Assembly: GCA_937873155.1 (NCBI GenBank)
Contig: CALMVZ010000010.1
Span: 62,001-126,000, forward strand
Direction: 5' to 3'
Origin: an uncultured Bacteroidota bacterium
GTDB lineage: Bacteria; Bacteroidota; Bacteroidia; B-17B0; Aurantibacillaceae
Length of the DNA: 64,000 bases
Position 1 is the stretch's first letter; every line of letters starts with the position of its first letter. The notes beneath the pieces are model-generated. The model had not been told where the DNA came from and ran no database searches. It saw only the letters and a program-made list of their open reading frames with translations. Shown piece by piece: positions 20,660 to 44,400 of the stretch. A program made the translations under genes and the position numbers.

Positions 20660-21414
20660 GGGATTTTACCATCTCAAAATATATTGAGTTATTAGATCTC
20701 CTTGTAGAAAAAGGATATTCTTTCCAGACATTGGATGAATACTTGCGTTCTCCGGAAGAAAGAGCGGTTGTATTAAGACATGATGTGGATCAGCTCCCTG
20801 AAAACTCTTTGGCATTCGCGAAACTTCAGAATCAAAAAAAAGTAAAGGGTGTTTATTATTTCAGGGCAGTTCCGGAAAGTTGGGATGAAAAAGTAATTAA
20901 AGGAATTTCCGCGTTAGGACATGAGATCGGTTATCATTATGAATGTTTGACTACAACCAATGGGAATCTTGAAAAAGGAATCACGGATTTTGAGAAAAAT
21001 CTTAATGCACTAAGGAAACTCGCGCCTGTTTTAACTATCTGCATGCATGGTAGTCCTACCAGTAAATATGATTCAAAAGATCTTTGGAAAAAGTATGATT
21101 ACAAAAGGTATGATATAACCGGAGAGCCTTATTTTGATGTTGATTTTAAAAAGATGTTATACCTGACTGATACCGGGCGGTGTTGGAACGGTGATGAGTT
21201 TAACGTTCGTGATAAGGTGAATTCCGGGTTCAACTTATCATTTCATTCGACGGATGATATAATAGGAGCATTAAAGAGGAATGAATTGCCTTCGAAAATA
21301 ATGTTCACGTTTCATCCTCAAAGATGGAATAATAATAAATTGAAATGGCTGAAGGAGTTAATCACTCAAAATCTAAAAAACCAGCTAAAAAAAATGTTCT
21401 ATGTTAAGCGGTAA
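20656..21414 (+). CDS. Divergent polysaccharide deacetylase-like protein
   Basis: This 252-residue protein has a NodB-like start motif VVLRHDVDQLPEN, with the paired aspartates of the deacetylase fold, the IGYHYE block and a late FHPQRW histidine region. These place it in the short polysaccharide-deacetylase-like group found next to DUF354 and FemAB-like genes. It has no signal peptide. The start overlaps DUF354 in ATGA and the end overlaps the sugar transferase gene by 14 bases. It likely removes an acyl group from a sugar intermediate. Confidence 0.75.
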   Translation: MRDFTISKYIELLDLLVEKGYSFQTLDEYLRSPEERAVVLRHDVDQLPENSLAFAKLQNQKKVKGVYYFRAVPESWDEKVIKGISALGHEIGYHYECLTTTNGNLEKGITDFEKNLNALRKLAPVLTICMHGSPTSKYDSKDLWKKYDYKRYDITGEPYFDVDFKKMLYLTDTGRCWNGDEFNVRDKVNSGFNLSFHSTDDIIGALKRNELPSKIMFTFHPQRWNNNKLKWLKELITQNLKNQLKKMFYVKR

Positions 21415-22507
21415 AGGACGCTATCTTTTTTTGGGTATGAAAGGATGTAGTGGTAACTTAGCTCCTGAACCTGAAATGAAAAAGATCCCGACACAGATCT
21501 CTGCAGACGTGCAAGAATACCTGAACAGTTACGTAAATTTAACTGCAGAAAAAACTTTGTTAGTGGAAGCTTCTGACGAGTATGCAATAAGTGAATGCAC
21601 CGGAGAGGTTAATGCGATAGTTAATCTTGAAAAAGTAAACAATATCCGGTTCATCAATAAATTCTTTGAATCTGTAAATAGTAAGTTAAAGAATGAAGAT
21701 TTTTTTATCTGCCGCTTTGAAACTATCGGGGCTAGAAGAGAACGCCACCGTTATCTCGGAATTCCTGTAGTAAGAAGTATATTCTTTGGTTTCGAATTTA
21801 TTTTCCTTAGGGTATTTCCGAAAATATGGGGATTTAAAAAAATCTATTTTTTGATCAGTAAAGGACGAAATCGTTTATTGTCAAAAGCAGAAGTGCTTGG
21901 TCGCCTTGTTAGCTGCGGATTTGAGATCGTGAGTTTTGAATCGTTCGACGGATTAATGTATGTAATAAGTAAAAAAATTAAGGCACCTGAATTCAATATG
22001 AATGTAAGTTACGGTCCTATATTTAAAATGCAGCGTCTTGGTAAAGATAGAAAATTGATCGGTGTTTATAAATTCAGGACGATGCATCCTTATGCTGAAT
22101 ATTTGCAAAGGTATGTTTTAGGGCTAAGTGGTTATTCAGAGAGCGGAAAGCCTGCAAATGATTTCCGTTTAACACCGTGGGGCGCTTTTTTAAGAAAGTA
22201 TTGGCTGGATGAATTACCGCAGATCATAAACATTTTAAAAGGTGAAATGAAATTGGTGGGGGTACGGCCGGTCTCAGAAAGTTACCTGCCGGATATACCT
22301 AAGGAATTACAGGATTTACGTTTCAAACAAAAACCCGGCTGTATACCTCCCTATGTCGCTCTCGGCAGAAAGAGCTCTGTAGAATCGGTTTTACAGGCAG
22401 AACAGGATTATTTAGTGGAAAAAGCCCGAAACCCATACTTTACCGATACTCGCTATTTTTTCAAAGCTCTTTTTAACATAATCTTCAGAAGAAGACGCAG
22501 TGCCTGA
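21401..22507 (+). CDS. Sugar transferase with unusual N-terminal half
   Basis: Residues from about 200 to 368 form the bacterial sugar transferase domain, which attaches the first sugar phosphate to undecaprenyl phosphate: GPIFKMQRLGKDRK, YKFRTMHPYAEY, LRKYWLDELPQIINILKGEMKLVGVRP. The normal membrane-hairpin entry (KRxxD... just before the domain) is missing. Instead about 190 residues precede it, with IFFGFEFIFLRVFPKIWG as a possible membrane helix and SKAEVLGRLVSCGFEIVSFESFDGLMYVI, which resembles the C-terminal end of a SAM-methyltransferase fold. It should start repeat-unit synthesis for the locus. It is the last gene before the export genes. Confidence 0.82.
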   Translation: MLSGKGRYLFLGMKGCSGNLAPEPEMKKIPTQISADVQEYLNSYVNLTAEKTLLVEASDEYAISECTGEVNAIVNLEKVNNIRFINKFFESVNSKLKNEDFFICRFETIGARRERHRYLGIPVVRSIFFGFEFIFLRVFPKIWGFKKIYFLISKGRNRLLSKAEVLGRLVSCGFEIVSFESFDGLMYVISKKIKAPEFNMNVSYGPIFKMQRLGKDRKLIGVYKFRTMHPYAEYLQRYVLGLSGYSESGKPANDFRLTPWGAFLRKYWLDELPQIINILKGEMKLVGVRPVSESYLPDIPKELQDLRFKQKPGCIPPYVALGRKSSVESVLQAEQDYLVEKARNPYFTDTRYFFKALFNIIFRRRRSA

Positions 22508-22581: not shown

Positions 22582-23364
22582 ATGAAAAAGATCCTTTTCA
22601 AGTATTTATTCTGTTTAACTATCCCCGTGATTTTTCTGTCGTGTACAGCAAAAAAGAAAATGGTTTATTTTCAAACGCCTTTAAATACTGCTGAGTCTAA
22701 TAAAAATTATAATCCTGTTCTGCATACCGATGATCTCCTTTCTATTATTGTTTTAGGAATGGATGTTGAGACCGTTAAGCCATTCAACATACCTGCACAG
22801 AATATAACGAATAGCCTGGGAGGCGGCTATAGCCAGGGAACACAAACATCAGCCGGATATTTAATTGATGCAGATGGAAATATTGATTTTCCTGTTATTG
22901 GTAAGATCAAAGCTGCAGGATTAACAAGAAGCGCACTTATTGATACATTAAAAGGAAGACTAAAACCACATCTTGTCAACCCAACTTTAATAGTAAGAAT
23001 GCTGAATTATAAGGTCACAGTATTAGGTGAGGTTCGTAATCCGGGTACATTCACAATTCCGAATGAGCGTGTTACATTACCGGAAGCGTTAGGAATTGCA
23101 GGCGATCTTTTAATTACAGCGAAACGGAAGAATGTTCTGGTAGTAAGAGATGTTGAAGGAAAGAAAACCGAATTCAGGGTGGACCTTACTTCAAAGGACC
23201 TGTTCTCTTCGCCTGTGTATTATCTGAATCAGAATGATCTTGTTTACGTTGAACCTAACCGTGCTAAAATGAATTCTTCAGTTATAAACCAGGCTAACGC
23301 AAGTTTAATAGTTTCAATTTCCTCGCTGATAGTAACCGTTATAGTCCTCATCCGAAATAAGTAG
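22582..23364 (+). CDS. Polysaccharide export outer-membrane lipoprotein (Wza-like)
   Basis: This 260-residue protein has a lipoprotein signal ending in VIFLSC (Cys21), then a polysaccharide-export domain (VLHTDDLLSIIVLGMD, YLIDADGNIDFPVIGKI) and an SLBB-type domain (YKVTVLGEVRNPGTFTIP). A hydrophobic segment (SLIVSISSLIVTVIVLI) closes it, as usual in Bacteroidota homologues. It forms the export channel with the Wzc-like protein, whose gene begins two bases after the stop. Confidence 0.92.
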   Translation: MKKILFKYLFCLTIPVIFLSCTAKKKMVYFQTPLNTAESNKNYNPVLHTDDLLSIIVLGMDVETVKPFNIPAQNITNSLGGGYSQGTQTSAGYLIDADGNIDFPVIGKIKAAGLTRSALIDTLKGRLKPHLVNPTLIVRMLNYKVTVLGEVRNPGTFTIPNERVTLPEALGIAGDLLITAKRKNVLVVRDVEGKKTEFRVDLTSKDLFSSPVYYLNQNDLVYVEPNRAKMNSSVINQANASLIVSISSLIVTVIVLIRNK

Positions 23365-23366
23365 TT

Positions 23367-25742
23367 ATGGAAACAGAACAACACCAGACCTTAAGCGATA
23401 CAGGACAAACCAACCTGAAGGATATCCTGTTCAAATATCTTTATCACTGGAAATGGTTTGTGTTAAGTACTATGGCAGGCCTTGCCCTGGGTTTTGTTTA
23501 TTTGCGATATCAGACACCTGTATTCGAAGTGAATGCCAGTATCCTGATCAAAGATGATAAAAAGGGCGGAGGGATCTCTGATGAATTAACTGCTTTCGAA
23601 GACCTGGGCATTTTAAAGAACAACAAGAACATTGATAATGAAATTGAGATCCTGAAATCACGTTCGTTAATGACGCTCGTTGTAAAAGAACTTAAGCTCA
23701 ACGTCAGATATTTTTCATACGGCCGTCCGATCGAGCATGAGCGTTATTTCGATACACCGTTCCTTGCCAATTATATTTTAAACGATTCAACAACAAATGT
23801 CTCCGGTAATTGGGTGATCTACCCGGAAGATGCAACTAAATTTATTTTAAAGACAGGCAAGGACGAGACCGTTATTGGTAATTATAAATTCGGAGATGCC
23901 ATTGAGACCCCGTTTGGCAGATTGATCATCACCACTACAAAATTCCTGTCGCCTTCGTATATGAAGAAAGATTTCAGGATCATGATCAGTTCGATTGATG
24001 CGGTTGTCGACCGCTATATATCTGCGATCAAGGTCACTCCTGTGAATAAGAACGCGAATGCTATTACCATTTCATTAAGGGATGCCTTACCTAAAAAAGC
24101 AGCGATCATTGTCGATAACCTGATCAAGCAACACAACCTCGACGCGATCGCTGATAAGAACCAGGTGAGTTTGAATACTTATAATTTTATTTCGGAGCGT
24201 ATCAATTTTATCGCAAAGGAATTAAATGAAGTGGAAGGTATCGCTGAAGAATTCAAAAGCAAGAATAAACTGGTCGACCCGAAAACGGATGGAGCGATGT
24301 TCCTGGAAACCGGCAGTGAAAGTGAAAAGATCCTCCTGGAAGCAACCACGCAAAAACAAGTGGCTGATTTCATGGTGGATTATCTTAATAAACACCAGGA
24401 TCTCACAAATCTTATTCCAACTAATATGGGGATCACAGATATCCCTTTATCAGGACAGATCACCGAATACAATTTATTAGTAATGGAACGAAGCAGGTTG
24501 TTAAAGTATTCCGGAGAAAAGAATCCTGTTGTCAATAGTTTAGAAAACCAGATCGTAAGTATGCGGAATGCGATCGTTGGAAGTTTTAAGAATTACCAGA
24601 ATGCATTGGATATCCGTGTGCGCGAATTAAGTAAAAAAGATAATGAGATCAACTCAAAGATAAGTACTGTACCAAAATACGAAAGGGAATACCGTAATAT
24701 ACAGCGTCAACAACAAATAAAGGAAGCGTTATATCTCTACTTGTTGCAAAAACGTGAAGAAACAAATATTGCTTTAGCCGTTACTGTGGCAAATGCGAAG
24801 GTTATTGATTACGCTTATAGTAACGGTCAGGTGGTTGCTCCTAAGAAGCAGATCATTTATTTAGCCTCATTCCTGTTAGGACTTCTTTTTCCTGCTCTTG
24901 TATTATATCTTATAGAAGTATTGGATACCAAAGTGAATTCAAAAAAAGATATTGAGGATATTAAAATGCCTTATATAGGTGATATCCCTGAAACTGAATC
25001 GAAGAAAAAAGTAGTGATCTCGAAAGGAGATAACTCAAGTGTAGCAGAAGCCTTCAGGTTATTACGGACAAACCTGGATTTTCTATTGGGAACAACCGTA
25101 AAAAAGGGACAAACTATATTTATCACTTCAACAGTTGGTAAAGAAGGAAAGACATTTGTGGCATTAAATCTCGCTGCGTCTATTGCCTTATCAGGAAAAA
25201 AAGTGTTGTTAATGGGAATGGATTTCAGGGCACCAAAAATTTTAAAGTATCTTGAATTGACCGACAGGGAAGGATTGACAAATTATATTTCTGACGTTAA
25301 CTCGGATGCTGATATCAAAAGCATGATCTTTAAAACAACGGATACCGGTAATCTCGATATTTTAGTTTCAGGAACGATCCCTCCCAATCCGGCTGAGCTA
25401 TTAATGAGTGAGCGCGTCGCTTCTGTATTCGAAAAATTAAAAGCAGAATACGATTATATAGTAGTGGATACGGCCCCTGTTGGCATGGTGACAGATACAT
25501 TATTGATCGGTAAGTATGCAGATGCAGTACTGTTTGTAGTAAGGGCAGGCGTAATTGAAAAGCGTATGCTTAATACTGCCGAAAGGGTTTACCGGGAAAA
25601 ACGATTACCTAATATTGCTGTTCTGCTGAACGGTACTTCCCCTAAAAAAGGATATGGTTATGGTTACGGCTATGGTTATGGATACGGTAACGAAAACATA
25701 AAGAAGAGCTGGTTTCAAAAATTGATCTCAAAAAAGGGATAG
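23367..25742 (+). CDS. Chain-length determinant / tyrosine kinase (Wzc-like)
   Basis: The 791-residue protein has an N-terminal Wzz domain (membrane helix WKWFVLSTMAGLALGFVYL), a long periplasmic coiled region, a second membrane helix (IIYLASFLLGLLFPALVLYL) and a cytoplasmic BY-kinase domain. The latter has Walker A TSTVGKEGKT (about 586-595), a Walker A'-type VLLMGMDFRAP and Walker B YIVVDTAP. The C-terminus has a tyrosine cluster with six GY pairs (about 764-776) as the autophosphorylation tail. It controls polymer length and export with the lipoprotein encoded upstream. Confidence 0.93.
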   Translation: METEQHQTLSDTGQTNLKDILFKYLYHWKWFVLSTMAGLALGFVYLRYQTPVFEVNASILIKDDKKGGGISDELTAFEDLGILKNNKNIDNEIEILKSRSLMTLVVKELKLNVRYFSYGRPIEHERYFDTPFLANYILNDSTTNVSGNWVIYPEDATKFILKTGKDETVIGNYKFGDAIETPFGRLIITTTKFLSPSYMKKDFRIMISSIDAVVDRYISAIKVTPVNKNANAITISLRDALPKKAAIIVDNLIKQHNLDAIADKNQVSLNTYNFISERINFIAKELNEVEGIAEEFKSKNKLVDPKTDGAMFLETGSESEKILLEATTQKQVADFMVDYLNKHQDLTNLIPTNMGITDIPLSGQITEYNLLVMERSRLLKYSGEKNPVVNSLENQIVSMRNAIVGSFKNYQNALDIRVRELSKKDNEINSKISTVPKYEREYRNIQRQQQIKEALYLYLLQKREETNIALAVTVANAKVIDYAYSNGQVVAPKKQIIYLASFLLGLLFPALVLYLIEVLDTKVNSKKDIEDIKMPYIGDIPETESKKKVVISKGDNSSVAEAFRLLRTNLDFLLGTTVKKGQTIFITSTVGKEGKTFVALNLAASIALSGKKVLLMGMDFRAPKILKYLELTDREGLTNYISDVNSDADIKSMIFKTTDTGNLDILVSGTIPPNPAELLMSERVASVFEKLKAEYDYIVVDTAPVGMVTDTLLIGKYADAVLFVVRAGVIEKRMLNTAERVYREKRLPNIAVLLNGTSPKKGYGYGYGYGYGYGNENIKKSWFQKLISKKG

Positions 25743-25835: not shown

Positions 25836-27848
25836 TTAAAGTACTTTCTTAATATTATGTTTCTTGAATTTATAGCGGTTACCACTTGATTTCGGCTTGA
25901 TAGCGATCTTATAAACTATACTCGCAGAATGTTGCAGGTAATTTGTTCCCGCATGAGGGAAGCGGTCCTCCAGGCCGAATTTGGCAATGCTTTGAACCTG
26001 CACACCAAAACCTTTATAAACCCATACATTAAATCCTAAACCTAAATTAGCCGTAGCTGAATTCGGATGTGTTGGTAATGACCTGTTCGTGTAACCTAAA
26101 CCGAATGTTCCGTAAGGCTGGAAAATATCTTTTGCATTACTTCCGCCAATCAGTTTATTCAGATTCACTAATTGATTGAAATCATATTTCAAATGAAGAT
26201 CAAACGACATGAGGCTGTAATTTTTAGGCACTAAGATCTCCGGTGTTTGATCCACTAAATAATTTCCGATCCCATATTGATTATAAGCCGCCATAAATTC
26301 AACACTCCATCCTTTGAACTTCGATAAAGAATCATTTTTACTCAGAACTTTTTCGCAGGTCACGCGTAATGCATAAGGAGCGATGTTCCATGCTTTATCT
26401 GTATTGAAAAGATTCTTGAACCATTTTCCGGCATCATCGTGCACGATATTATATCCTAAACCAACGATCCAGGGTGTTTCTCTCAGGTCATCCCTGAATT
26501 TTTCTTTCTTATAAGCATCCTCCGGAGTTTCTTCTTTAGGTGTGATCTTGTAAACTAAGCCGGCCGAATGCTGTAGGTAATTTGTTCCTGCATGCGGAAA
26601 GCGATCCGCTAAACCAAACTTAGCAATACTTTGAACCTGGATTCCCAAACCTTTATACATCCACACATTAAAACCAAGTCCGACATTGAAGGTGGCTGAA
26701 TGTTCACGATTCGGTAATGTTCTGTAAGTATATCCGAAACCAAAAGTTCCGTAAGGCTGGAAAATATCTTTTGTTGAACCCAGAACCTTATTCAAATTCA
26801 CGAGTCGGTTAAAATCATATTTCATATGAAGATCGAAAGATAAGAGAGTGTAATTCTCTTTGACAAGAATAACAGGAGTCTGATCTACTAAATAATTTTC
26901 TTTGCCATAACGGTTATAAGCCGCCATGAATTCCAAACTCCAGCCTTTGAATTTCGATGCAGAATCATTTTTTCTTAATACTTTTTCACATGTACCTCGT
27001 AAAGAATACGGCGCAACGTTCCAGGCTTTATCAGTATTGAAAAGATTTTTGAACCATTTTCCCGCATCGTCATGAACAACATTGTAGCCTAAACCAACGA
27101 TCCATGGTGTCTTCTTCAGATCCTTAATGAATTTTTCTTTTCGGAATGCGTCATCAGCAGTTTTAACCCTAGGCGTTCTCTTGTAAACTACACCGGCAGA
27201 GTGTTGTAAATAATTTGTTCCCGCATGCGGAAATTTATTTGCTAAACCGAATTTCGCTAAACTTTGAATTTGTACGCCGAGTCCTTTATAGATCCAAACA
27301 TTAAAACCAAGGCCAACATTAAATGTCGCAGAATGTTCACGTGTCGGTAAAGTTCTGTAAGTATATCCGAAACCAAAAGTTCCGTAAGGCTGGAAAATAT
27401 CTTTTGTTGAACCCATAATTCTATTGAGATTAACCAAATGGTTAAAATCATATTTACCATGAAGGTCGAAGGATAGTAATGTATAATTTTCCGTTACTAA
27501 AATAACCGGTGTTTGATCCACTAAATAATTCCCCTTGCCATAACGGTTATAAGCCGTCATGAATTCTAAACTCCATCCCCGCGCTTTCGATAACGAATCA
27601 CCTAATGGTTTTTCCCATGTAAAGCGTAATGGGAATGGGGTAGCATTCCAGGTGTTCCTTGTATTGAAAAGATCTTTGAACCATTTCCCGGCATCATCAT
27701 GCACTATATTCCAGCCATGACCAAAGATCCAGGGTGTTGAACGCATTTTAGTGCGGAACTTTTCGAACTTACTTACAGACTGCGTTTGTGCCTGGCTCAG
27801 AAATACAGGGAACAAAAGAAATATAATGGCAGTCTTGAGACTTTTCAT
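25836..27848 (-). CDS. Tandem triple outer-membrane beta-barrel-like protein
   Basis: This protein of about 670 residues starts best at the ATG at 27848, which gives a clean signal peptide (MKSLKTAIIFLLFPVFLSQAQ); an in-frame start 16 codons earlier adds nothing signal-like. It consists of three homologous units of 209-211 residues. Each begins TPWI.G.G.N.VHDDAGKWFK.LFNT and ends with LQHSA..VYK, and each has about eight alternating amphipathic strands (FQPYGTFGFGYTYRTLP, GFNVW.YKG.G.Q). One unit looks like a complete OmpA-type eight-stranded barrel. Function unknown; outer-membrane location inferred. Convergent with the polysaccharide locus. Confidence 0.7.
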   Translation of the reverse strand: MKSLKTAIIFLLFPVFLSQAQTQSVSKFEKFRTKMRSTPWIFGHGWNIVHDDAGKWFKDLFNTRNTWNATPFPLRFTWEKPLGDSLSKARGWSLEFMTAYNRYGKGNYLVDQTPVILVTENYTLLSFDLHGKYDFNHLVNLNRIMGSTKDIFQPYGTFGFGYTYRTLPTREHSATFNVGLGFNVWIYKGLGVQIQSLAKFGLANKFPHAGTNYLQHSAGVVYKRTPRVKTADDAFRKEKFIKDLKKTPWIVGLGYNVVHDDAGKWFKNLFNTDKAWNVAPYSLRGTCEKVLRKNDSASKFKGWSLEFMAAYNRYGKENYLVDQTPVILVKENYTLLSFDLHMKYDFNRLVNLNKVLGSTKDIFQPYGTFGFGYTYRTLPNREHSATFNVGLGFNVWMYKGLGIQVQSIAKFGLADRFPHAGTNYLQHSAGLVYKITPKEETPEDAYKKEKFRDDLRETPWIVGLGYNIVHDDAGKWFKNLFNTDKAWNIAPYALRVTCEKVLSKNDSLSKFKGWSVEFMAAYNQYGIGNYLVDQTPEILVPKNYSLMSFDLHLKYDFNQLVNLNKLIGGSNAKDIFQPYGTFGLGYTNRSLPTHPNSATANLGLGFNVWVYKGFGVQVQSIAKFGLEDRFPHAGTNYLQHSASIVYKIAIKPKSSGNRYKFKKHNIKKVL

Positions 27849-28084: not shown

Positions 28085-28612
28085 ATGAATTTGGTTGATC
28101 AGATCAAGAAAACCATCCGTGATGTTGCAGATTTTCCAAAACCGGGAATAATGTTCAAAGACATTACGCCAATTTTAGAAGATCAGGAATTATGTTCAGC
28201 AATTGTGAATGGATTTATTGAGAAGCTTGGTTACAAACCGGATGCGATCGTTGGAGTTGAGAGCCGCGGGTTTTTGTTTGGTGTACTTATGGCAAACAAA
28301 TTAAATGTGCCTTTCATTATGGTCCGTAAAGCAGGAAAACTTCCTTACAAGACTATCCACTGCGAGTACGCCCTGGAATACGGAACAGCAAAAATTGAAA
28401 TGCACATAGATGCATTAAAAAAAGGTTGGAACGTTTTAATTCATGATGATCTGTTAGCAACAGGAGGAACAGCCGAAGCAGCAGCTCAATTGGTAAAACA
28501 GCAAGGCGCAAACGTAAGTGGTTTTGCATTTGTAGTTGAACTTGAATTTTTAAAAGGAAAAGAAAAATTAAAAACACATTCAAATAATATAACATGTCTG
28601 GTGCAGTATTAG
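28085..28612 (+). CDS. apt: Adenine phosphoribosyltransferase
   Basis: This 175-residue protein converts adenine and PRPP to AMP in purine salvage. It has the family start IRDVADFPKPGIMFKDITPIL, the VGVESRGFLFG block and the PRPP-binding loop VLIHDDLLATGGTA (about 117-130). Length matches the family. Its end overlaps the acyl-CoA dehydrogenase start by 19 bases, so the two are co-transcribed. Confidence 0.96.
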   Translation: MNLVDQIKKTIRDVADFPKPGIMFKDITPILEDQELCSAIVNGFIEKLGYKPDAIVGVESRGFLFGVLMANKLNVPFIMVRKAGKLPYKTIHCEYALEYGTAKIEMHIDALKKGWNVLIHDDLLATGGTAEAAAQLVKQQGANVSGFAFVVELEFLKGKEKLKTHSNNITCLVQY

Positions 28613-29804: not shown

Positions 29805-31292
29805 TCAAGGTTTGTGTAGCCCCGGAGTGTTGTTACTTCGGGGCTTTTTTTGCACCCTTACTATCAGGTTCTTTGTATTTGGAGAAACGGAAACGTAAGT
29901 CAAATGCACATCTGAGTTCTTATAATACGTCAGATCATAAGGCGGATATAAGACCAGGTAATCAAACTCTGCAAGCTTATTTTCAACCGGACAAATCCCT
30001 TTGGGATAATACGTTTCGATCCTGTCGCCAATGTAATTGTATTTTTTTGTATTGCTGGTATAATAGTAATTCACGAATACGCCGTATAATTCAGGAGAGA
30101 TGCCAACGTGTTTTGCGTTTAACTTTTGTAATTCATCAAAACTTTCTTTCGAATCGGTTTGTTCTATGAAATCAAAAGCGTGTTTTAAATTAATACTCAT
30201 CATGAAATTGATGATCAGTAAAAATGAAAAAACTAAAATGACCGGTTTGTAAAAAATGAATTTGAACCGGATAAAGGAAACAAATGAGACCGCTGATGGA
30301 ACGATCAATAATTGCGCGGCCCTGTAAAAAGGATATGGAGCATGGAAACAAAGATAATTTAGTATCATGGGTAGTATCATTAGCGGAAAGATCAATGAAG
30401 AATAATAGTAAAGAGCATTCTGATGTTCTTTACGTTTGAATATTCCAAAATAACATGAAAGAGAAATGCAAAAGAAAATTCCCAATGAGATCCCGAATTG
30501 AATTAATTTTGGAAGAACTAGTTTGTGATAAAAAAAACCGTCCGATAACACATGGAACATTGCAAGGAAACTTGGTTCGCCGGCTCCTTTGAAATCGCCT
30601 GAACAGCGGATCATGAATAAAATGGCACGGCCAATCAATAAAAATGTACCAAGGCAGATCAGCGCATCAACATAAAAACTTTTGCGTTTGTAAAAACCGT
30701 TTAGTCCCTTAAAATAAACGGTATAAAAATAGATGAGCGCAAAAGCAAAAAAGAAATACACAAAACTATAATTGGAAATGGAAGATAACCCTGCAAAGGC
30801 AATTGAAAGAAAAAGAGTCAGCCGTTTATTTTTGTTAATTCCTTTAACAAAAAACCATAAAGCCAAACACTGGAACATAATACCTGCCGCATAACCGCGC
30901 GCTAACCCGAAATAATCGAGCAGGTAAGGATTTAAAAAAAGCACGCAGAATCCAAGTAATTTTATGGATGTTGAGGAAAATGTCTTAAGCCACCACCACC
31001 CAAAACAACAAGTAAGAATAAACGAAAAGACACTAAACCAACGCAAACAAAAAACAGATTCGCATCCGGATAAAAGTGAAAGCTTCATGGCTGCGCTATT
31101 GATCCAATGCGAATTGCCGGTACATAAGAATTCGCTGATCCAGAAATTTTTTACGTTGTGGAAAGAGTAGGCTTCATCGTGCGTTATATTTACAAGGGCT
31201 GCGCGCAAGACAACATAAACGATAAGAAGCAAAAAACCTAAACTTAAAACAGGTTGGTTTTTTAAGAAGCTTTTTACTGTTTGCATATACAT
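29805..31292 (-). CDS. GT-C-type integral membrane protein (GT39/ArnT-like)
   Basis: This 495-residue protein has about eleven hydrophobic helices. After the first helix comes the acidic loop motif ITHDEAYSF, which resembles the D-E catalytic loop of GT-C glycosyltransferases such as PMT/ArnT that use polyprenyl-phosphate sugars. The soluble C-terminal end is short. The last 13 codons contain the terminator hairpin of the convergent acyl-CoA dehydrogenase gene, so its C-terminus (SNNTPGLHKP) may be a by-product of that overlap. Specific substrate unknown. Confidence 0.7.
   Translation of the reverse strand: MYMQTVKSFLKNQPVLSLGFLLLIVYVVLRAALVNITHDEAYSFHNVKNFWISEFLCTGNSHWINSAAMKLSLLSGCESVFCLRWFSVFSFILTCCFGWWWLKTFSSTSIKLLGFCVLFLNPYLLDYFGLARGYAAGIMFQCLALWFFVKGINKNKRLTLFLSIAFAGLSSISNYSFVYFFFAFALIYFYTVYFKGLNGFYKRKSFYVDALICLGTFLLIGRAILFMIRCSGDFKGAGEPSFLAMFHVLSDGFFYHKLVLPKLIQFGISLGIFFCISLSCYFGIFKRKEHQNALYYYSSLIFPLMILPMILNYLCFHAPYPFYRAAQLLIVPSAVSFVSFIRFKFIFYKPVILVFSFLLIINFMMSINLKHAFDFIEQTDSKESFDELQKLNAKHVGISPELYGVFVNYYYTSNTKKYNYIGDRIETYYPKGICPVENKLAEFDYLVLYPPYDLTYYKNSDVHLTYVSVSPNTKNLIVRVQKKPRSNNTPGLHKP
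29818..29851 (+). terminator. Terminator shared by convergent genes
   Basis: Arms GCCCCGGAGT and ACTTCGGGGC (one wobble) with a GTTGTT loop are followed by a T run. The hairpin ends the acyl-CoA dehydrogenase transcript, and it lies within the last codons of the convergent membrane-protein gene. Confidence 0.85.
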
Positions 31293-33992: not shown

Positions 33993-36900
33993 ATGAAAAA
34001 AATATATACTTTAATTCTGGCCTTCATTTTTGTTGGCGGAATAGTTAGATCACAAGTAACGGTTACAGGTGGAGTTACCTTAAGTTACACAACTTTAGGA
34101 GCGGCTTTTTCTGCTATTAACTCGGGTGTTCATACGGGGGCTATCACAGTCGATATTTCGGCAAGCACTACCGAAACAGCTTCGGCAGTTCTTAATTCAT
34201 CAGGAACAGGTGGAGCTAATTATACTTCACTTCTTATCTTCCCGTCTGTTGATGGTGTTGCGGTCAATGGCTCAACAACTACAGCAGCCGGGCGTGGTGT
34301 TATTGAATTGAACGGGGCGGATTTTGTTACGATCGATGGTGACAATCCGAATACACCGGGTATAAACAGGAATTTGACAATTATCAATAACAACACAGTA
34401 ACTACAAATTATACTTCGGGTATAAGGATCGCTACGGCAGCAGGTACAGGTTTTGTTGATGCCAATAACATTACCATTATGAATGTTATCGTAAATGGCA
34501 GCGCTGTCGGATTGAATATTGCAGGGACAACTTCTACTACGGGTCCGCAAAACACAACTTTCGGAATTGTAACAGGTCCTAACGGCGGAGCTGTTATTGG
34601 ATCCCTTTCATCAGTAACAACAGGTATGGCAGCGGGTATGCCGGCGAATAATCTTGTGATAAGCAACAATGCAATCAATCAATGCGCCCGTGGTATTGCA
34701 TTTTTAGGTAACACTACAACTCCTACAACAAACAGCATTACTATTACTAATAACCTTATTGGTGCGAACGTTGCACTTGCAGGTAGTTGGCCTTATACCT
34801 CACCTGTAACAACAGTTTACACAAAAGGTATTTTTCTTCAGGGTGCAACAGGAATTAATATTTCAGGAAATACCATTAAGAATGTAATGTCGTACGTAGC
34901 GACAGGTATTACTGCAATGGAATTCAGTACCGGCACAGGGGCAGGTGGTATCACTATCGCGAGCAATACTATCACTGGTATTTCTCATAACGGAGTTGGT
35001 TCTTCTACAGCACGCGCTATCAATCTAGCAAGTACGGCAGCCACCGCAACTTATTTAGTACGTTCTAATATTATCAATAATGTACAATGTAATTCTGCTA
35101 CTTATCCTGCGGGTATATATTTGAATACAACAGCTACTTCAGGTATTGCAGAAAATAACCAGGTTAGCATGGTTTATAATAATCAGGCAGGTACCTCAGG
35201 TGTTGCAGGTATAGATCTTTCGGCAGGCAGTAATGTTACTGTACGTAATAACTTCATCTGGGATATCAATGAAGTGATGACAGGCGGAGGTTTCAGTACA
35301 ACCTTTGGTATTTACGGCATACGAGTTTCTTCCGGAACAGGACATAAGATACTGCACAATACAGTCAGTCTTTCAGGTACCCCATTCGGAACCGGAGCAA
35401 CACTTCTTTCAGCGGCATTGTGTATCGTGAACACTTCCCAAACAGGTATGGAGGTAAGGAACAATGTTTTTTCAAACACAATTCTTAGCGGGGCCGCATC
35501 AAATGCACACGTATGTATTTATCTTCCTTCCACTGCAACCAGCGCAATGAATTTGATGCTGAATAATAATGCTTATTATTCGGGTGGCACAGCGGCTGAA
35601 CAAGGTATTGCACAATTAGGAACAACAGCGGGAACTAATTTTTACCTTGCATCTAATTTTAATGCCAGCTCAACTACACCGGCAAGTAATTTCAGAGCCT
35701 TCTCAAGTACACTTGGAAATTTAACTAATGACAATTCTTCTTTTGCCACAACTTCAGCAGCTCCGTTTATTTCAGCAACAAATCTCCACATTAGTAACGC
35801 AACTTATAATCCATTGGAGTCGGGCGCAGTTGTAACAACTGTTACGTTAGATATCGACAATGATGTTCGTCCGGGACCAATTGGTTCTGTGAATGGTGGC
35901 GGAACTATTCCTGATATCGGTGCAGATGAATTCGACGGATTAGTGATCAATACCGATCTTTCTGCATTTGGTTTAGCAAGCCCGGTATTACCTCCGTCTT
36001 GTTATGGTCCAAACCAAACTGTTTCGGTTGTAATTAAGAATACAGGCGTAAGTGCTATAGACTTTGCTTTAAACAATGCTACAGTAACTGCTTTTGCAAG
36101 CGGTGTGAATCCACAGGTATTTCCAAATGTGGTTATCACATCCGGAACACTGGTTGCAGGCGCTACGCAAACTGTTGTTATGTCTACAACTTATAATATG
36201 ACGACCGCAGGTACTTATTCATTTAACGGAACTGCAACAGTTGCCGGTGATGGAAATTCGTCAAATGACGTTATGGGAGTTGCTACAAGAACGGTTGCCC
36301 CATTGGTAGCATTGCCTGAAACCGTGGATTTCACCGGGTTTACAGGCGCTAATCTTACAACGGTATTTCCTAATTGGTATGAAGCTAATGGCGCTGCAGT
36401 TCCTACACCAAGTGCTACAGCATGGACCAGTCAGACCGGTCTGAATGCGGTCGGTAATATTACTGCACGTGTTAATTTATTTAGTACTATTAAAGATGAG
36501 TGGATCGTTGGCCCTAAATTCACAGCCGCAGCGAACACACAAATATCTTTTGATGCAGCTGTTACAAATGGTGCAAGTACAACTGTTGGTGATATAATGG
36601 GAAGTGATGACATGGTACGTGTGATGGTTTCAACTAATTGCGGCGTTTCTTATACACCGATCTTTACAGTAAGTGCAACCAACAGCTTAGCTGTTACATT
36701 CACTAATTTTGTTATTTCATTAAGTGCTTATGCAGGACAGGACATTATTGTTGCTTTCCTTGCACAGGACGGTCCGGTAGATGATATTGAGAATTACGAT
36801 TTCCATCTTGATAACATTAACATCCAAAACCTTGCTGCTTCAGATGCGGGTGTATCTGCTTTAGTTTCTCCGTTTACAACAGGTTGCTATGGTTCTTCGG

Positions 36901-39719
36901 AGAATTTAGTTGTAACGATCAATAATTATGGCGTAACGCCAATAACCAACATTCCTGTTACTGTTATTGTTTCCGGTGCTGCAACACAAACCAGCAATGC
37001 AGTGTATACAGGAACGATCGCCCCGGCTTCTTCAGTGAGCTTTACAGTGGCTACATTGAACATGACAGCACCGGGAACTTATTCATTCAATTCATTCACA
37101 TCTTTGCCTGGAGACGGAAATGCGACCAATGATAACATGGCAACAGCAACAAGAACAAATGTTGCGCCCGTAGCATTACCGCAACAAGTAAATTTCACGG
37201 GTTTTACAGGAGCTAATTTAACTACTGTTTTCCCTAACTGGTATGAGGCTACAGGAGCAGTTGTTCCCGCTGGAACAACATCTACTTTCACTTATCAAAC
37301 CGGTTTAGGCGGTGTTGGAAATATTACAGCGCGGGTTAATCTTTTTGGTAATACCAAAAATGAATGGATCGTTGGCCCGAAATTCACTGCCGCAGCGAAC
37401 AGCGCAATTACTTTCGATGCAGCGGTTACAAACTGGAACAGTATCACAGTTGCTGACTTAATGGGAAGTGATGATAATGTACGCGTAATGGTTTCAACCG
37501 ATTGCGGTGTTTCATATGCACCTGTATTTACCGTCAGTGCAACTAACAGTTTATCAATTAACCTTACAAACTTCTCAGTTCCTCTAGGAACATATGCAGG
37601 TCAGGATATCATTGTAGCATTCCTTGCAAGTGAAGGAACAGTTAATGACGCTGAAGATTATGATTTCCATATCGACAATATCAATATTTTAAATGTGCCA
37701 TTACAGGATGCGGGTATTACGGCGTTAACATCACCGGGAACTACAGGTTGTTATGGTGCTTCTGAGAATCTTGTTGTAACGATCAATAATTTTGGCTCTT
37801 CCCCTATAACAAACGTACCGGTTACGGTTATTGTTTCAGGTGCTGCAACACAAACTTTGAACGCTGCTTATACAGGCACTATTGCTCCGGCTGCAAGTGC
37901 CAGCTTCACTGTTGGTACACTTAACATGACGGCCTTCGGAACTTATTCTTTTAACGCCTTCACTTCCTTGCCGGGCGACGGGAATAGTGCAAACGATAAC
38001 ATGGCCACTGCAACAAGAACTAATGTAGCTCCTGTTACATTACCACAACAAGTTGATTTCACCGGATTCACCGGAGCTAATCTTACAACGGTTTTTCCTA
38101 ACTGGTACGAAGCATCAGGAGCAACAATTCCTGTAGGAACTACTTCTACCTTCACTTACCAGACCGGTTTAACTGCTGTAGGAAATATAACTGCACGCGT
38201 TAATCTTTTTGGAAATACTAAGAACGAATGGATCGTTGGCCCGAAATTAACCGCATCTTCAAACAGTCAGTTAACTTTTGATGCAGCTGTAACAAACTGG
38301 AATAGCATAACAGTTGCAGACTTAATGGGAAGTGACGATATGGTGCGTGTAATGGTATCTACTGATTGCGGTTTTTCTTATGCTCCTGTATTTACAGTAA
38401 GTGCAACCAATAGTTTAGCAATTACATTCACTAAATTCTCAGTTCCGTTATCGGCTTACGCTGGTCAGGATATCATTGTTGCATTCCTCGCAAGTGAAGG
38501 AACTGTTAATGACGCAGAAGATTACGACTTCCATTTAGATAACATTAATATCTGTAATCTTCCGTCTGCCCCTGTTTCTCCTGCCGGTTCTGCAATTTGT
38601 AGCGGATCTACGGCGGCCATCAATGCTTCTACAGTAACCGGAACACCATATTGGTATAACGTTTCTGTTGGTGGTTCGGTAATATCTACATCAACTGTTT
38701 ATACAACACCTTCATTAACTGCAAACGCAACTTATTATCTGGCCGATTCAACCGGTTGTGGAATTGGTCCGCGTGCTGGAGTAACGATCACAGTTAATCC
38801 AACCCCAACCATTACTGCGGTCATAAGCCCGACTGCAATTTGTTCAGGCGGTTCAGCAACCTTAACTGCAGGCGGTGCGAATACTTATTCGATGAACGCC
38901 GTAAGTATACCTTCAGTTTCTGTGCTAACCCCATCTACATCTATAAGCTTCACTTTGTCAGGTACCGATGTCAATGGTTGTACGGCAAGTGTTTTTCCCG
39001 GACTTAATGTAAATCCAAACCCAACTGTAACACCCGTTTCAACTTCAAGCGCAGTTTGTGCAGGAAGTTCAGCAACGTTAACAGCAAGCGGTGCTAATAC
39101 ATATTCGTGGACAAGTGTTGGAACAGGATCAATGATCGTTGTTACACCAACAGCTAACACAACTTATACAGTTGAAGGAATTGATGTGAATGGCTGCATG
39201 GATGTTCAAATGATCTCAGTGAATACAAATTCATTGCCTGTAATGTCAGCAAATACAAGTGCAAGCGTGTTGTGTGTTGGTAGTTCAGCTACATTAACTG
39301 CAAGTGGCGCAAATACATATTCATGGACAGGAGTTGGTTCCGGTGCAAGTATTGTGGTTAGCCCGACAACCACTGTAACTTATACTGTTGAAGGAACTGA
39401 TGTGAATGGCTGTACGGATACTATCAGCATCCAGCAAGTTGTTTCTACATGTACGGGTATTCAAAATATCCCGGCGAATAGTAATGGTGTTAGTGTTTAT
39501 CCCAATCCATCTAACGGCTTAATTACTTTAATTGTAACGGATGCTACAAAAGCAATGTCTTTTGAAGTTTACGATGCAGTAGGTAAACAAGTTGTGCTAA
39601 AAGAGGTTACTACCAACGAAACGCAGATCAACCTTTCTGAATTAGCGAACGGTGTTTATTCATTCCGTTTAGTTAGTACAAATGGTTTTGTTTCCCAGGG
39701 TAAACTCATCAAGAATTAA
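33993..39719 (+). CDS. Giant T9SS-secreted surface protein, paralogue A
   Basis: This 1908-residue protein has a signal peptide (MKKIYTLILAFIFVGGIVRSQ), a beta-helix-like region of repeated NN.I/N.I motifs to about residue 640, then alternating CARDB-like (GCYG.SENLVVTINN.G) and choice-of-anchor-J-like domains (FTGFTGANLTTVFPNWYEA to DYDFHLDNINI). The anchor-J starts lie at residues 777, 1065 and 1353, exactly 288 apart. Ig-like repeats (CAGSSATLTASGANTYSW) follow, and a T9SS type A sorting domain (VYPNPSNGLITL to GKLIKN) ends it. It is probably a cell-surface or secreted adhesin. The next giant gene is its paralogue. Confidence 0.9.
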   Translation: MKKIYTLILAFIFVGGIVRSQVTVTGGVTLSYTTLGAAFSAINSGVHTGAITVDISASTTETASAVLNSSGTGGANYTSLLIFPSVDGVAVNGSTTTAAGRGVIELNGADFVTIDGDNPNTPGINRNLTIINNNTVTTNYTSGIRIATAAGTGFVDANNITIMNVIVNGSAVGLNIAGTTSTTGPQNTTFGIVTGPNGGAVIGSLSSVTTGMAAGMPANNLVISNNAINQCARGIAFLGNTTTPTTNSITITNNLIGANVALAGSWPYTSPVTTVYTKGIFLQGATGINISGNTIKNVMSYVATGITAMEFSTGTGAGGITIASNTITGISHNGVGSSTARAINLASTAATATYLVRSNIINNVQCNSATYPAGIYLNTTATSGIAENNQVSMVYNNQAGTSGVAGIDLSAGSNVTVRNNFIWDINEVMTGGGFSTTFGIYGIRVSSGTGHKILHNTVSLSGTPFGTGATLLSAALCIVNTSQTGMEVRNNVFSNTILSGAASNAHVCIYLPSTATSAMNLMLNNNAYYSGGTAAEQGIAQLGTTAGTNFYLASNFNASSTTPASNFRAFSSTLGNLTNDNSSFATTSAAPFISATNLHISNATYNPLESGAVVTTVTLDIDNDVRPGPIGSVNGGGTIPDIGADEFDGLVINTDLSAFGLASPVLPPSCYGPNQTVSVVIKNTGVSAIDFALNNATVTAFASGVNPQVFPNVVITSGTLVAGATQTVVMSTTYNMTTAGTYSFNGTATVAGDGNSSNDVMGVATRTVAPLVALPETVDFTGFTGANLTTVFPNWYEANGAAVPTPSATAWTSQTGLNAVGNITARVNLFSTIKDEWIVGPKFTAAANTQISFDAAVTNGASTTVGDIMGSDDMVRVMVSTNCGVSYTPIFTVSATNSLAVTFTNFVISLSAYAGQDIIVAFLAQDGPVDDIENYDFHLDNINIQNLAASDAGVSALVSPFTTGCYGSSENLVVTINNYGVTPITNIPVTVIVSGAATQTSNAVYTGTIAPASSVSFTVATLNMTAPGTYSFNSFTSLPGDGNATNDNMATATRTNVAPVALPQQVNFTGFTGANLTTVFPNWYEATGAVVPAGTTSTFTYQTGLGGVGNITARVNLFGNTKNEWIVGPKFTAAANSAITFDAAVTNWNSITVADLMGSDDNVRVMVSTDCGVSYAPVFTVSATNSLSINLTNFSVPLGTYAGQDIIVAFLASEGTVNDAEDYDFHIDNINILNVPLQDAGITALTSPGTTGCYGASENLVVTINNFGSSPITNVPVTVIVSGAATQTLNAAYTGTIAPAASASFTVGTLNMTAFGTYSFNAFTSLPGDGNSANDNMATATRTNVAPVTLPQQVDFTGFTGANLTTVFPNWYEASGATIPVGTTSTFTYQTGLTAVGNITARVNLFGNTKNEWIVGPKLTASSNSQLTFDAAVTNWNSITVADLMGSDDMVRVMVSTDCGFSYAPVFTVSATNSLAITFTKFSVPLSAYAGQDIIVAFLASEGTVNDAEDYDFHLDNINICNLPSAPVSPAGSAICSGSTAAINASTVTGTPYWYNVSVGGSVISTSTVYTTPSLTANATYYLADSTGCGIGPRAGVTITVNPTPTITAVISPTAICSGGSATLTAGGANTYSMNAVSIPSVSVLTPSTSISFTLSGTDVNGCTASVFPGLNVNPNPTVTPVSTSSAVCAGSSATLTASGANTYSWTSVGTGSMIVVTPTANTTYTVEGIDVNGCMDVQMISVNTNSLPVMSANTSASVLCVGSSATLTASGANTYSWTGVGSGASIVVSPTTTVTYTVEGTDVNGCTDTISIQQVVSTCTGIQNIPANSNGVSVYPNPSNGLITLIVTDATKAMSFEVYDAVGKQVVLKEVTTNETQINLSELANGVYSFRLVSTNGFVSQGKLIKN
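36324..38915 (+). repeat. Three 864-nt tandem units in T9SS protein A
   Basis: The anchor-J domain start (VDFTGFTGANL) recurs at 36324, 37188 and 38052, a period of exactly 864 nt. DNA words such as GAATGGATCGTTGGCC are nearly identical between units. The end given is three periods from the first start; the last unit grades into other repeats. Confidence 0.8.
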
Positions 39720-41413: not shown

Positions 41414-44400
41414 ATGAAAAAACAATTACAGTTCATTACAGCTCTGCTGTTTATCACAGCATCTTTATTTTCGCAAGTAAATGTTTCCGGCGGTTCAACT
41501 GCTACTTATTCTACTGTTAATGCAGCATTCGCAGCAATTAACGCGGGAACACATTTCGGTGCGATCACAATTAGTGTAACGGCCAGCACATCTGAGCCCG
41601 CAACACCAACACCTTTAATGGCAAGCGGACAAGGTGCGGCTAACTACACTTCTATTAACATGAGACCAACTGTCGCAGCTACTATCAGCGGTGTTATGGT
41701 TACAGGTCGTGGTGTTTTAGAATTTGATGGTGTAGATAACTTTAATATCAACGGTGATATTCCCGGAGGCCCTGTTACACGAGATCTTACGATCTCTAAC
41801 GATGCCGCAATCACTGTAGCAAATACTGCAGCTATCCGTTTTATCGGAAGAGCAACAGGTGGTTTGGGAGCAACTACCAATACTGTACAAAACAGTATCA
41901 TTAGCGGTAATACTCCCGGTAATGATGGTTCGAGCGGGAGTACCGTAACCAGCAGTTATGGAATTTACGCAGGTGGTAACGGTACAACCTTAACAAGCGG
42001 GGGTACCGGAAATGATTATGATGATCTTGTGATCCGCAATAATCAGTTCAGAAGCGCTTATTTCGGATTATACATTGGTTGTCTTACAGCAGGTACAGGC
42101 GATAATAACCTTATCACCAATAATATTTTCGGATCGAATACTGTTGGTCAGACACTTTCTTTCAGGGGGATCTTATTAAATGGTGTAACTAACAGTACTG
42201 TTGCTTTGAACGATGTGGCGAATTTAAAAGTTACTACCAGTGTGTCTAACGCAGGTATTGAAGTTTCAGGCGCATCTTCAAATTCAGTTGTGATCTCAAG
42301 AAATAAAGTTTATGAGATGGCATCGTCAAGCACAGGCGGCTGGGGATGTTATGGTATCAGTTTAGCCGGTGGTACAAATCACCAGGTTATCAATAACGTG
42401 ATCTATGATATCGTTACTACTAATTACTCATCAACAAGTCAAACCTTTAATGCATTTGGTATCCGCCTTTCTTCCGGAACAGGTCACCAGATCTATTATA
42501 ACAGTGTGAACATGTTCGGCAGTTACACAATGGGTAATACTACAGCAGCATCTGCTGCTTTTGTAGTTACTACTACTGGTGTAACCGGTCTTGATATCAG
42601 GAATAACATTTTCAATAATAAAATGACCTCTACTGCTGCAACCAGAAAATTCATGGCTGTATGGTTCCCTACATCTTATAATTTTGCTAACGCTAATTTA
42701 GAACGCAATGCTTATACGGTTACTAATGACCCTGAGCATTTTGTTGGAAAGATCGGAATCACAAACGGAGTGAATGAGTTCGCTAATTTATCAGCATGGC
42801 AAGCCGTTTCACAAGTTGGTAATCCATCAAACGATGTGAATTCAGTTCCCCCTGCAAATTCACCGGCTCCTTTCGTTGCCGATAATAATTTAACCTTTGC
42901 AACTAACGCTGTAACGCCAATCGAATCAGGTGCTATATTAATTCCGGCATTAGGAACTAATATCGATCATAACGGAGCTGTGCGTCCTTTATCCGGAACA
43001 AATCCAAACTTAAATCCTGATATGGGTGCTTATGAATTTGATGGCCAGGCAGGGATCGCTTCTGACGCCGGAGTTCAGGCTATGGTTAGTCCTGTAAATG
43101 GCGGATGTTATACAGCTGCAGAAAATATTGTTGTTACTATCAAGAATTACGGAACTTCTGCGATCTCTAATATTCCTGTAACGGTTACAGTTTCGGGTGC
43201 AGCTTCTCAAACAACAACAAATACATATTTAGGAACTCTTGGTGTGGGATCAACTTTAAACTTTACAGTTGGTACTGTGAACATGACAGCAGCAGGTGTT
43301 TATTCTTTTAACGCAGCAACATCTTTAAGCGGTGATACAAATACACCAAACGATGCAATGTCTACTGAAACACGTACAGTTACTGCTGCGGTTGCATTAC
43401 CACAATCGGTAAGCTTCACCGGGTTTACAGGCGCTAACTTAACAACCGTATTCCCGAATTGGAATGAATCAGTCGGAGTAACTACACCTACAGGTGTTAC
43501 TTCAGCATGGACAAGCCAAACAGGATTGAATGGTGCAGGAAATATTACGGCACGTTTAAATATGTTCGGAACAGCCCGTAACGAATGGATCGTTGGCCCT
43601 AAGTTCCTGGCTACTTCAGCTTCACAAATTTCTTTTGATGCTGCTGTTACAAATTTCGCCAGCACAACTGTTGGTGATATTATGGGTAGTGATGATATGG
43701 TCCGTGTAATGGTTTCAACTGATTGCGGATTAACGTATTCTCCTGTTTTTACAGTGAGCGCTACAAATAGTTTATCAACTACATTTACAAACTTTGTAGT
43801 TAACCTTGGTTCTTATTCAGGACAAAATGTCATCGTTGCTTTTTTAGCACAGGATGGCCCGACTGATGACATTGAAGATTACGATTTTCATTTAGATAAT
43901 ATCAATTTATACACTGCATCTGCAACTGATGCAGGGGTTACAGCTTTAACAAGTCCTGCTATTGGAGGTTGTTATGGATCTGCAGAGAATTTAGTGGTAA
44001 CCATTAAGAACTTCGGTACATCTGCAATTTCGAATATTCCTGTTACAGTTACTGTTTCAGGTGCTGCTACACAAACTACAACAGGAACTTATACAGGAAC
44101 AATTCCTGTAAGCGGTACAGCCAGTTTCACAGTTGGAACACTGAACATGCTTGCAGCAGGAACTTATTCTTTTGATGCTGCAACATCTTTACCCGGTGAT
44201 GGTAATGCTACTAATGATGCAATGGCTCAAACAACCCGTACTGTAATGCCAACAGTTGCACTACCGCAAACGGTTGACTTCACAGGATTCACCGGCGCTA
44301 ACCTTCCTACCTTCTTCCCGAACTGGAGAGAAGGAAATACAGCAACCGTTCCTACAGGTACAACTTCATTATGGACCAGTCAGACAGGTTTGAACAGCGC

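Follow-up and report, generated by a model that had tools for sequence, protein, structure and literature searches.

The window analysed here, a stretch of 64,000 nucleotides from an uncultured Bacteroidota bacterium, carries a gene whose product very probably folds into three separate eight-stranded barrels within a single chain. The gene is convergent with a Wzc-like gene at the end of a polysaccharide cluster (Table 1). Taken as a whole, we consider it fairly probable that the three barrels are tethered, were duplicated at the apt-Wzc site, and are accessory to Wza/Wzc export.

Table 1. Features of the window discussed in the text, with the basis of each assignment.
Feature	Coordinates	Strand	Basis
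Predicted triple-barrel outer-membrane protein gene, ATG start, 670 aa plus stop	25836-27848	-	Open frame and translation
Signal-peptide-like N-terminus, residues 1-21, MKSLKTAIIFLLFPVFLSQAQ	27786-27848	-	Read from sequence; cleavage site assumed
Unit 1, residues 27-235, 209 aa, predicted 8-stranded barrel	27144-27770	-	Match to OprF barrel
Unit 2, residues 236-446, 211 aa, predicted 8-stranded barrel	26511-27143	-	Match to OmpA barrel
Unit 3, residues 447-670, 224 aa, predicted 8-stranded barrel and C-terminal tail	25839-26510	-	Match to OmpW
Helix in unit 1/unit 2 linker, residues 231-246	27111-27158	-	DSSP on full-length model, model residues 210-225
Helix in unit 2/unit 3 linker, residues 442-457	26478-26525	-	DSSP on full-length model, model residues 421-436
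Lysine-rich C-terminal tail, KIAIKPKSSGNRYKFKKHNIKKVL, once per protein	25839-25910	-	Sequence comparison
Wzx-like flippase	7194-8423	+	Pfam PF01943
Wzy/ligase-like polymerase	8416-9801	+	Pfam PF04932
Bacterial sugar transferase (priming glycosyltransferase)	21401-22507	+	Pfam PF02397
Wza-like OPX protein, 260 aa, lipobox-like N-terminus, hydrophobic C-terminal stretch	22582-23364	+	Pfam Poly_export, SLBB; hydrophobicity
Wzc-like chain-length/tyrosine-kinase protein, 791 aa, convergent with barrel gene	23367-25742	+	Pfam Wzz, GNVR, AAA_31
Phosphoribosyltransferase (apt-like), conserved flank marking the locus	28085-28612	+	Pfam PF00156; beside barrel gene in G003, G004, G006, G007

Repeat units and predicted fold

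The translation of the gene contains no internal stop. An alternative TTG start 48 bases upstream of the ATG would extend it to 686 aa, and the same frame is found on contig C10 of the source genome. The first-pass annotation of this DNA had described three repeat units of 209-211 residues joined by short linkers (DAF/YRKEKF). Three units are indeed found, and this length holds for units 1 and 2, whereas the third is longer when counted with its tail. The units are joined, but by linkers of 24 residues, TPRVKTADDAFRKEKFIKDLKKTP and TPKEETPEDAYKKEKFRDDLRETP, each with a predicted helix of 15-16 residues (DSSP, full-length model; 16 as delimited in Table 1). The linker stretch is also occupied by residues in single-unit relatives, so the helix is the N-terminal part of each unit rather than a purpose-built linker. 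Similar basic tails are found in L004 and L005, two relatives with a single unit, and the double gene of G004 ends in one as well.

Pairwise, the units are identical at 159/209, 161/211 and 143/209 amino-acid positions (76, 76 and 68 %). A DNA repeat finder reports three copies at a spacing of 627-639 bases and 71-78 % identity, and identity at third codon positions is 50-58 %. NG86 estimates between the units give dN 0.16-0.24 and dS 1.1-2.7, the latter near saturation and indicative only. Nearly saturated third codon positions combined with low dN/dS argue for an old duplication under purifying selection and not for an assembly artefact. On this evidence the copies are old and purifying selection has maintained every one of them, a pattern not expected of unrelated sequence, of an assembly echo or of a tandem duplication of recent date.

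Modelled alone with AlphaFold from 55 aligned sequences, one unit is predicted to form an eight-stranded barrel (pLDDT 86.8, pTM 0.82). The best structural matches of this model are solved eight-stranded barrels, namely OmpW, NspA, OmpA, OprF and a Thermus outer-membrane protein, with Z 14.4-15.8 over approximately 130-150 residues. The first-pass annotation had counted about eight amphipathic strands per unit; eight are predicted, and most of them are polar on one face and apolar on the other. The more polar strand face carries the invariant residues D104, G137, G139, N155, G159 and K177. The long first loop (DDAGKWFKNLFNTDKAWN...) reveals a mean entropy of 1.51 vs 1.57 for all strands, and 20 of its 59 columns differ among the three units; loops L2-L4 are more variable than the first loop.

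Family profiles match the barrel protein below their curated cut-offs: PF13505 (OMP_b-brl) at E 4.9e-6 with 27.3 bits (cut-off 28.7; the best single stretch scores lower), and TIGR04565 (OMP_myx_plus, NCBIfam) at E 2.5e-7 with 30.9 bits (cut-off 60). No OmpA domain (PF00691) was found in the protein up to E 10, and a search of solved-structure sequences with the whole protein yielded nothing up to E 10. The same search with the family profile gave two unrelated weak matches only (E 0.23 and 0.39), and no PHROGs family matched unit 3 up to E 1. The C-terminal beta-signal for BAM has the form polar-x-Gly-x-x-aromatic-x-hydrophobic in the last strand. Of the three window units, only unit 2 matches this motif strictly: unit 1 has R at its end, and in unit 3 the G is replaced by S. 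Among 58 family rows, 37 match strictly and 8 were unscorable.

In the full-length AlphaFold model, each unit consists of eight long strands preceded by a helix of 15-16 residues, and each finds its own structural match: model residues 16-203 (unit 1) the OprF barrel with Z 14.8, residues 225-415 (unit 2) the OmpA barrel with Z 16.0, and residues 436-628 (unit 3) OmpW with Z 16.0. The first larger barrel among the matches of this model is BamA (Z 6.9, 9.6 A rmsd). The suggestion of three barrel-like units in one chain is borne out by the fold predicted for the single unit and by the three separate matches. Prediction of the full protein and of a single unit alike gives eight-stranded barrels that match solved ones, and two or more complete barrel domains are predicted for this one chain. 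A non-barrel fold was set aside, since both models match eight-stranded outer-membrane barrels. The full-length model has a mean pLDDT of 73.4 and a pTM of 0.45, and does not fix the relative placement of the three barrels. Nearly all single-unit relatives in its alignment were placed on unit 3, so that units 1 and 2 were predicted almost without an alignment of their own. When the whole triple was submitted to Foldseek, large barrels (siderophore receptors) came top by E-value with TM-scores of 0.12-0.19 and an rmsd of approximately 17-27 A, as expected from many strands matching piecemeal. The predicted fold, the signal-peptide-like start and the amphipathic strands together point to insertion of the barrels in the outer membrane.

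Relatives and unit number at the apt locus

Among 87 genomes of the family, 30 contain members of the barrel family, giving 66 match rows. More than one unit per frame was found only in the window gene (3 rows, 686-residue frame) and in one gene of G004 (2 rows, 475-residue frame). The remaining relatives are single genes of approximately 190-270 residues, frequently as tandem pairs, or combine a barrel with an OmpA domain (396 residues). Barrels with a C-terminal OmpA domain (PF00691) occur in L020, L077 and L100, which come from other families. In three genomes, G026, G030 and G013, the barrel pair is also directly adjoined by OmpA-domain proteins (PF00691; L068:7230-8375, L070:8030-9112 and L069:10991-12112).

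At higher taxonomic levels, class and phylum samples of 395 overlapping genomes each, with 7 candidates scored in most genomes, gave matches in 46 and 50 genomes, respectively. They contained no further multi-unit frame, where weakly similar multi-unit proteins could escape. Homologues with one unit are thus many and one has two, as a search along the lines of the first-pass annotation could reveal; a four-unit homologue was not found in the 87 family genomes or in the class and phylum samples. The order-level census comprised the same 87 genomes and therefore adds no independent data. No relative turned up in viral contigs searched with tblastn, and the three loci obtained by scanning named genomes all belong to congeners already seen, labelled as Sphingobacteriaceae or Bacteroidia metagenome assemblies. 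In G123, two fragmentary barrel-gene rows that contain several internal stops overlap at G123:C85:10151-10821; flanked by two intact copies, they look like a decayed third tandem copy.

The barrel gene is divergent from apt and from a gene that we take to be acyl-CoA-dehydrogenase-like in five of the eight genomes of the genus, namely the window's own genome (G000), G003, G004, G006 and G007. At this site three units are found in G000, two in G004, one each in G006 and G007, and at least one in G003, whose gene (L067:3-635) is cut short within unit 1 by the end of the contig. In the G003 species, too, there may thus be a multi-unit form at which the assembly broke. The number of barrels seems to differ between close relatives at one and the same site. 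In G006 and G007 (L065 and L064) the barrel beside apt is followed by a frame of approximately 1300 aa in place of Wza/Wzc, with an fn3 match in L064. A probable multi-spanning membrane protein of 495 aa (29805-31292, reverse strand) occupies the same place in G006 and G007 at 38-39 % and is absent at that place in G003.

In the tree, from which rows below 150 residues (one fragment) were dropped, the three window units form one clade (support 96/94), and the two units of G004 form a weakly supported clade (90/87). Orthology of unit 3 to the second G004 unit was rejected (p-AU 0.008), as was orthology to the first G004 unit for units 1 and 2 together (p-AU 0.005) and for unit 1 alone (p-AU 0.03). 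The fusion junctions of the window triple and the G004 double are alike by eye, so that homogenisation after a shared fusion stays in play. Lineage-specific amplification, or later homogenisation by gene conversion after a shared fusion, is the likely origin of this pattern. The fusion itself would have arisen when a single-barrel gene was duplicated in frame at the apt-Wzc site. Solan, Pereira, Lupas, Kolodny and Ben-Tal (PNAS 2021, e2104059118) reportedly found that eight-stranded combinations prevail among multi-barrel proteins, with lineage-specific fusion and amplification. Such proteins have more than one barrel domain per chain, as is predicted here, and the lineage-specific amplification attributed to them fits the window triple.

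Polysaccharide cluster and co-occurrence with Wzc

By their Pfam matches, the adjacent genes are a Wzx/Wzy-type polysaccharide cluster. Its end reads OPX, then Wzc, then the convergent barrel gene, with a distance of 109 bases between the latter two, and upstream it also includes glycosyltransferase, polysaccharide deacetylase, O-acyltransferase and asparagine-synthase-like genes. Wza_C gave no match in the OPX protein at E 0.01. Beyond apt, the window contains two very long frames on the forward strand, 33993-39719 and 41414-47143, of 1908 and 1909 aa. Pfam identifies an Ig-like domain and a type 9 secretion sorting tail in the former, which also contains three near-identical stretches starting DFTGFTGANLTTVFPNWYEA. 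Both frames likely encode secreted surface proteins.

Within the 87 family genomes and among the Wzc matches listed, the barrel gene is present in 24 of 24 genomes with a close Wzc vs 6 of 63 others. Close Wzc here means 54 % identity or more, the top of the sorted list of Wzc matches; seven weaker Wzc rows outside this set (G058, G012, G021, G040, G031, G020 and G054) were used for distances. The same distribution is seen within one genus (14/14 vs 2/26, p 5e-9) and within a second (5/5 vs 3/15, p 0.004), while the window's own genus gives 5/5 vs 1/3, which is not significant (p 0.11); all are Fisher tests among the Wzc matches listed, and their p-values overstate independence because the genomes are related.

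Again among the Wzc matches listed, a Wzc lies within 10 kb of 18 of 41 barrel loci and is convergent in 17 of these 18; the convergent adjacency recurs with different spacers. The other 23 of the 41 loci, some of them on short contigs or contig ends, have no listed Wzc within 10 kb. Barrel and Wzc lie apart in G032, for the second barrel type of several genomes, and in G006 and G007, where the barrel is at apt and Wzc elsewhere. Of 12 loci from other families, seven (L101-L104, L108, L110 and L111) have a match to a gene of the window's polysaccharide cluster near the barrel, some of these weak, and five have no such match near the barrel.

Proposed role, alternatives and comparison with described systems

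The protein would be exported by its signal peptide, after which each unit would fold into its own outer-membrane barrel. Given the even number of strands, both termini, the 24-residue helical linkers and the basic tail would lie on the periplasmic side, with the three barrels tethered side by side. In the outer membrane, the barrel family would be an accessory to Wza/Wzc export that keeps the export complex or its polymer in place, or organises it, at the surface. A functional tie of the family to polysaccharide export is, from gene content and order, just probable. An eight-stranded barrel has no channel wide enough for polysaccharide; should the tie exist, an accessory role rather than a pore is therefore quite likely. 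Such a role at the Wza exit fits the co-occurrence, and a connection to the cell wall would likewise be compatible with the barrel-OmpA fusions and the OmpA-domain proteins nearby. Against the tie speaks that the OPX protein has a hydrophobic C-terminal stretch of its own and may need no barrel partner.

That the triple is an artefact of assembly or gene calling is scarcely credible. Fusions are known from two genomes only, one of them an 84 % complete draft; however, about one quarter of the bases differ between the units, so that short reads can tell them apart, the frame is open over the entire gene, and a second species has a fusion at the same place. It is also highly improbable that the 24 strands form one large barrel through which the polysaccharide leaves, comparable to the 18-stranded Wzp porins of Myxococcus. 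Each unit occurs alone as a complete gene in relatives, the single unit is predicted as an eight-stranded barrel, and the units of the triple individually match small barrels, the best larger one reaching Z 6.9 at 9.6 A rmsd. The large barrels heading Foldseek's whole-model list speak for the single large barrel, as does an OPX protein that comprises only Poly_export and SLBB in 260 aa, like those of class 3, which are paired with a barrel porin in Myxococcus.

Three separate barrels could alternatively belong to a general OmpA-like protein for envelope structure and stability, whose Wza/Wzc neighbourhood is inherited linkage with little functional meaning. We regard this as somewhat unlikely. 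The peptidoglycan-binding-type OmpA domains fused to barrels of other families (L020, L077, L100), the OmpA-domain proteins that come after the paired barrel genes of G026, G030 and G013, and the five of 12 distant loci that lack a polysaccharide-gene match near the barrel are in its favour. It accounts less well for the barrel in all 24 close-Wzc genomes among the matches listed, a distribution seen also within genera, for the convergent adjacency recurring with different spacers, and for the seven of 12 distant loci that keep a nearby cluster match, some of them weak. A surface receptor or adhesin, in which unequal crossing-over shifts the copy number and thereby varies the surface, e.g., against phages, is improbable: the first loop is as conserved as the strands (entropy 1.51 vs 1.57), unlike a diversifying surface, and only 20 of its 59 columns differ among the three units, even though unit number differs among congeners, the trees suggest separate amplification, and G123 has an apparent decayed copy.

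In the open-licence literature, no paper was found on this barrel family, on a triple eight-stranded barrel or on a tie of either to Wza/Wzc. Multi-barrel outer-membrane proteins as such have already been described (Solan et al. 2021, as cited in PMC11494523, PMC8592465, PMC9603273 and PMC10745669). The first-pass annotation held a covalent triple barrel to be unusual for the assembly machinery, and with multi-barrel proteins in print this surprise is less justified. Several barrels per chain are known; what is new is the context beside a Wza/Wzc polysaccharide cluster. GfcD of the capsule operon is a two-barrel protein with 12 and 13 predicted strands and a middle periplasmic domain (PMC11494523, PMC8592465). 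GfcD and YjbH (group 4 capsule and yjbEFGH operons) resemble the window protein in having several barrels per chain in a polysaccharide export locus. They differ in that their barrels, of 12 and 13 strands, flank a periplasmic alpha/beta domain, whereas the window protein is predicted to have three near-identical units of eight strands and short linkers, to judge by strand counts and element order in the full-length model. In Myxococcus, class 3 OPX proteins (median 256 aa) pair with the 18-stranded porin Wzp (PMC9603273). Both Wzp and the window barrel are encoded next to an OPX gene that lacks Wza_C. Wzp forms a single PgaA-like barrel of 18 strands, whereas the window protein has eight predicted strands per unit and no expected pore. 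With OmpA, OmpW, NspA and OprF each window unit shares the predicted closed, eight-stranded fold, but three units stand in one chain here. The Bacteroidota barrel-OmpA proteins (L020, L077, L100) belong to the same barrel family, and several are also near polysaccharide genes; they consist of one barrel and a C-terminal OmpA domain, which the window triple lacks.

It is doubtful, though conceivable, that the small barrels are a dedicated component of one Bacteroidota Wza/Wzc system, a tethered cluster around the OPX exit and thus a second architecture beside Wzp. If so, congeners with one, two and three joined barrels would constitute a dose series for the number of barrels per chain handed to the assembly machinery.

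The reading of three tethered barrels accessory to Wza/Wzc export proposes a small-barrel partner for exopolysaccharide export in Bacteroidota, for which the co-occurrence is strong and the function putative. If it is right, a single family would offer a natural series of single gene, tandem pair, double and triple of nearly the same barrel. Such a series would allow a test of how the assembly machinery deals with a chain of several complete barrels that each carry their own end signal, and of whether covalent tethering takes the place of oligomer formation.
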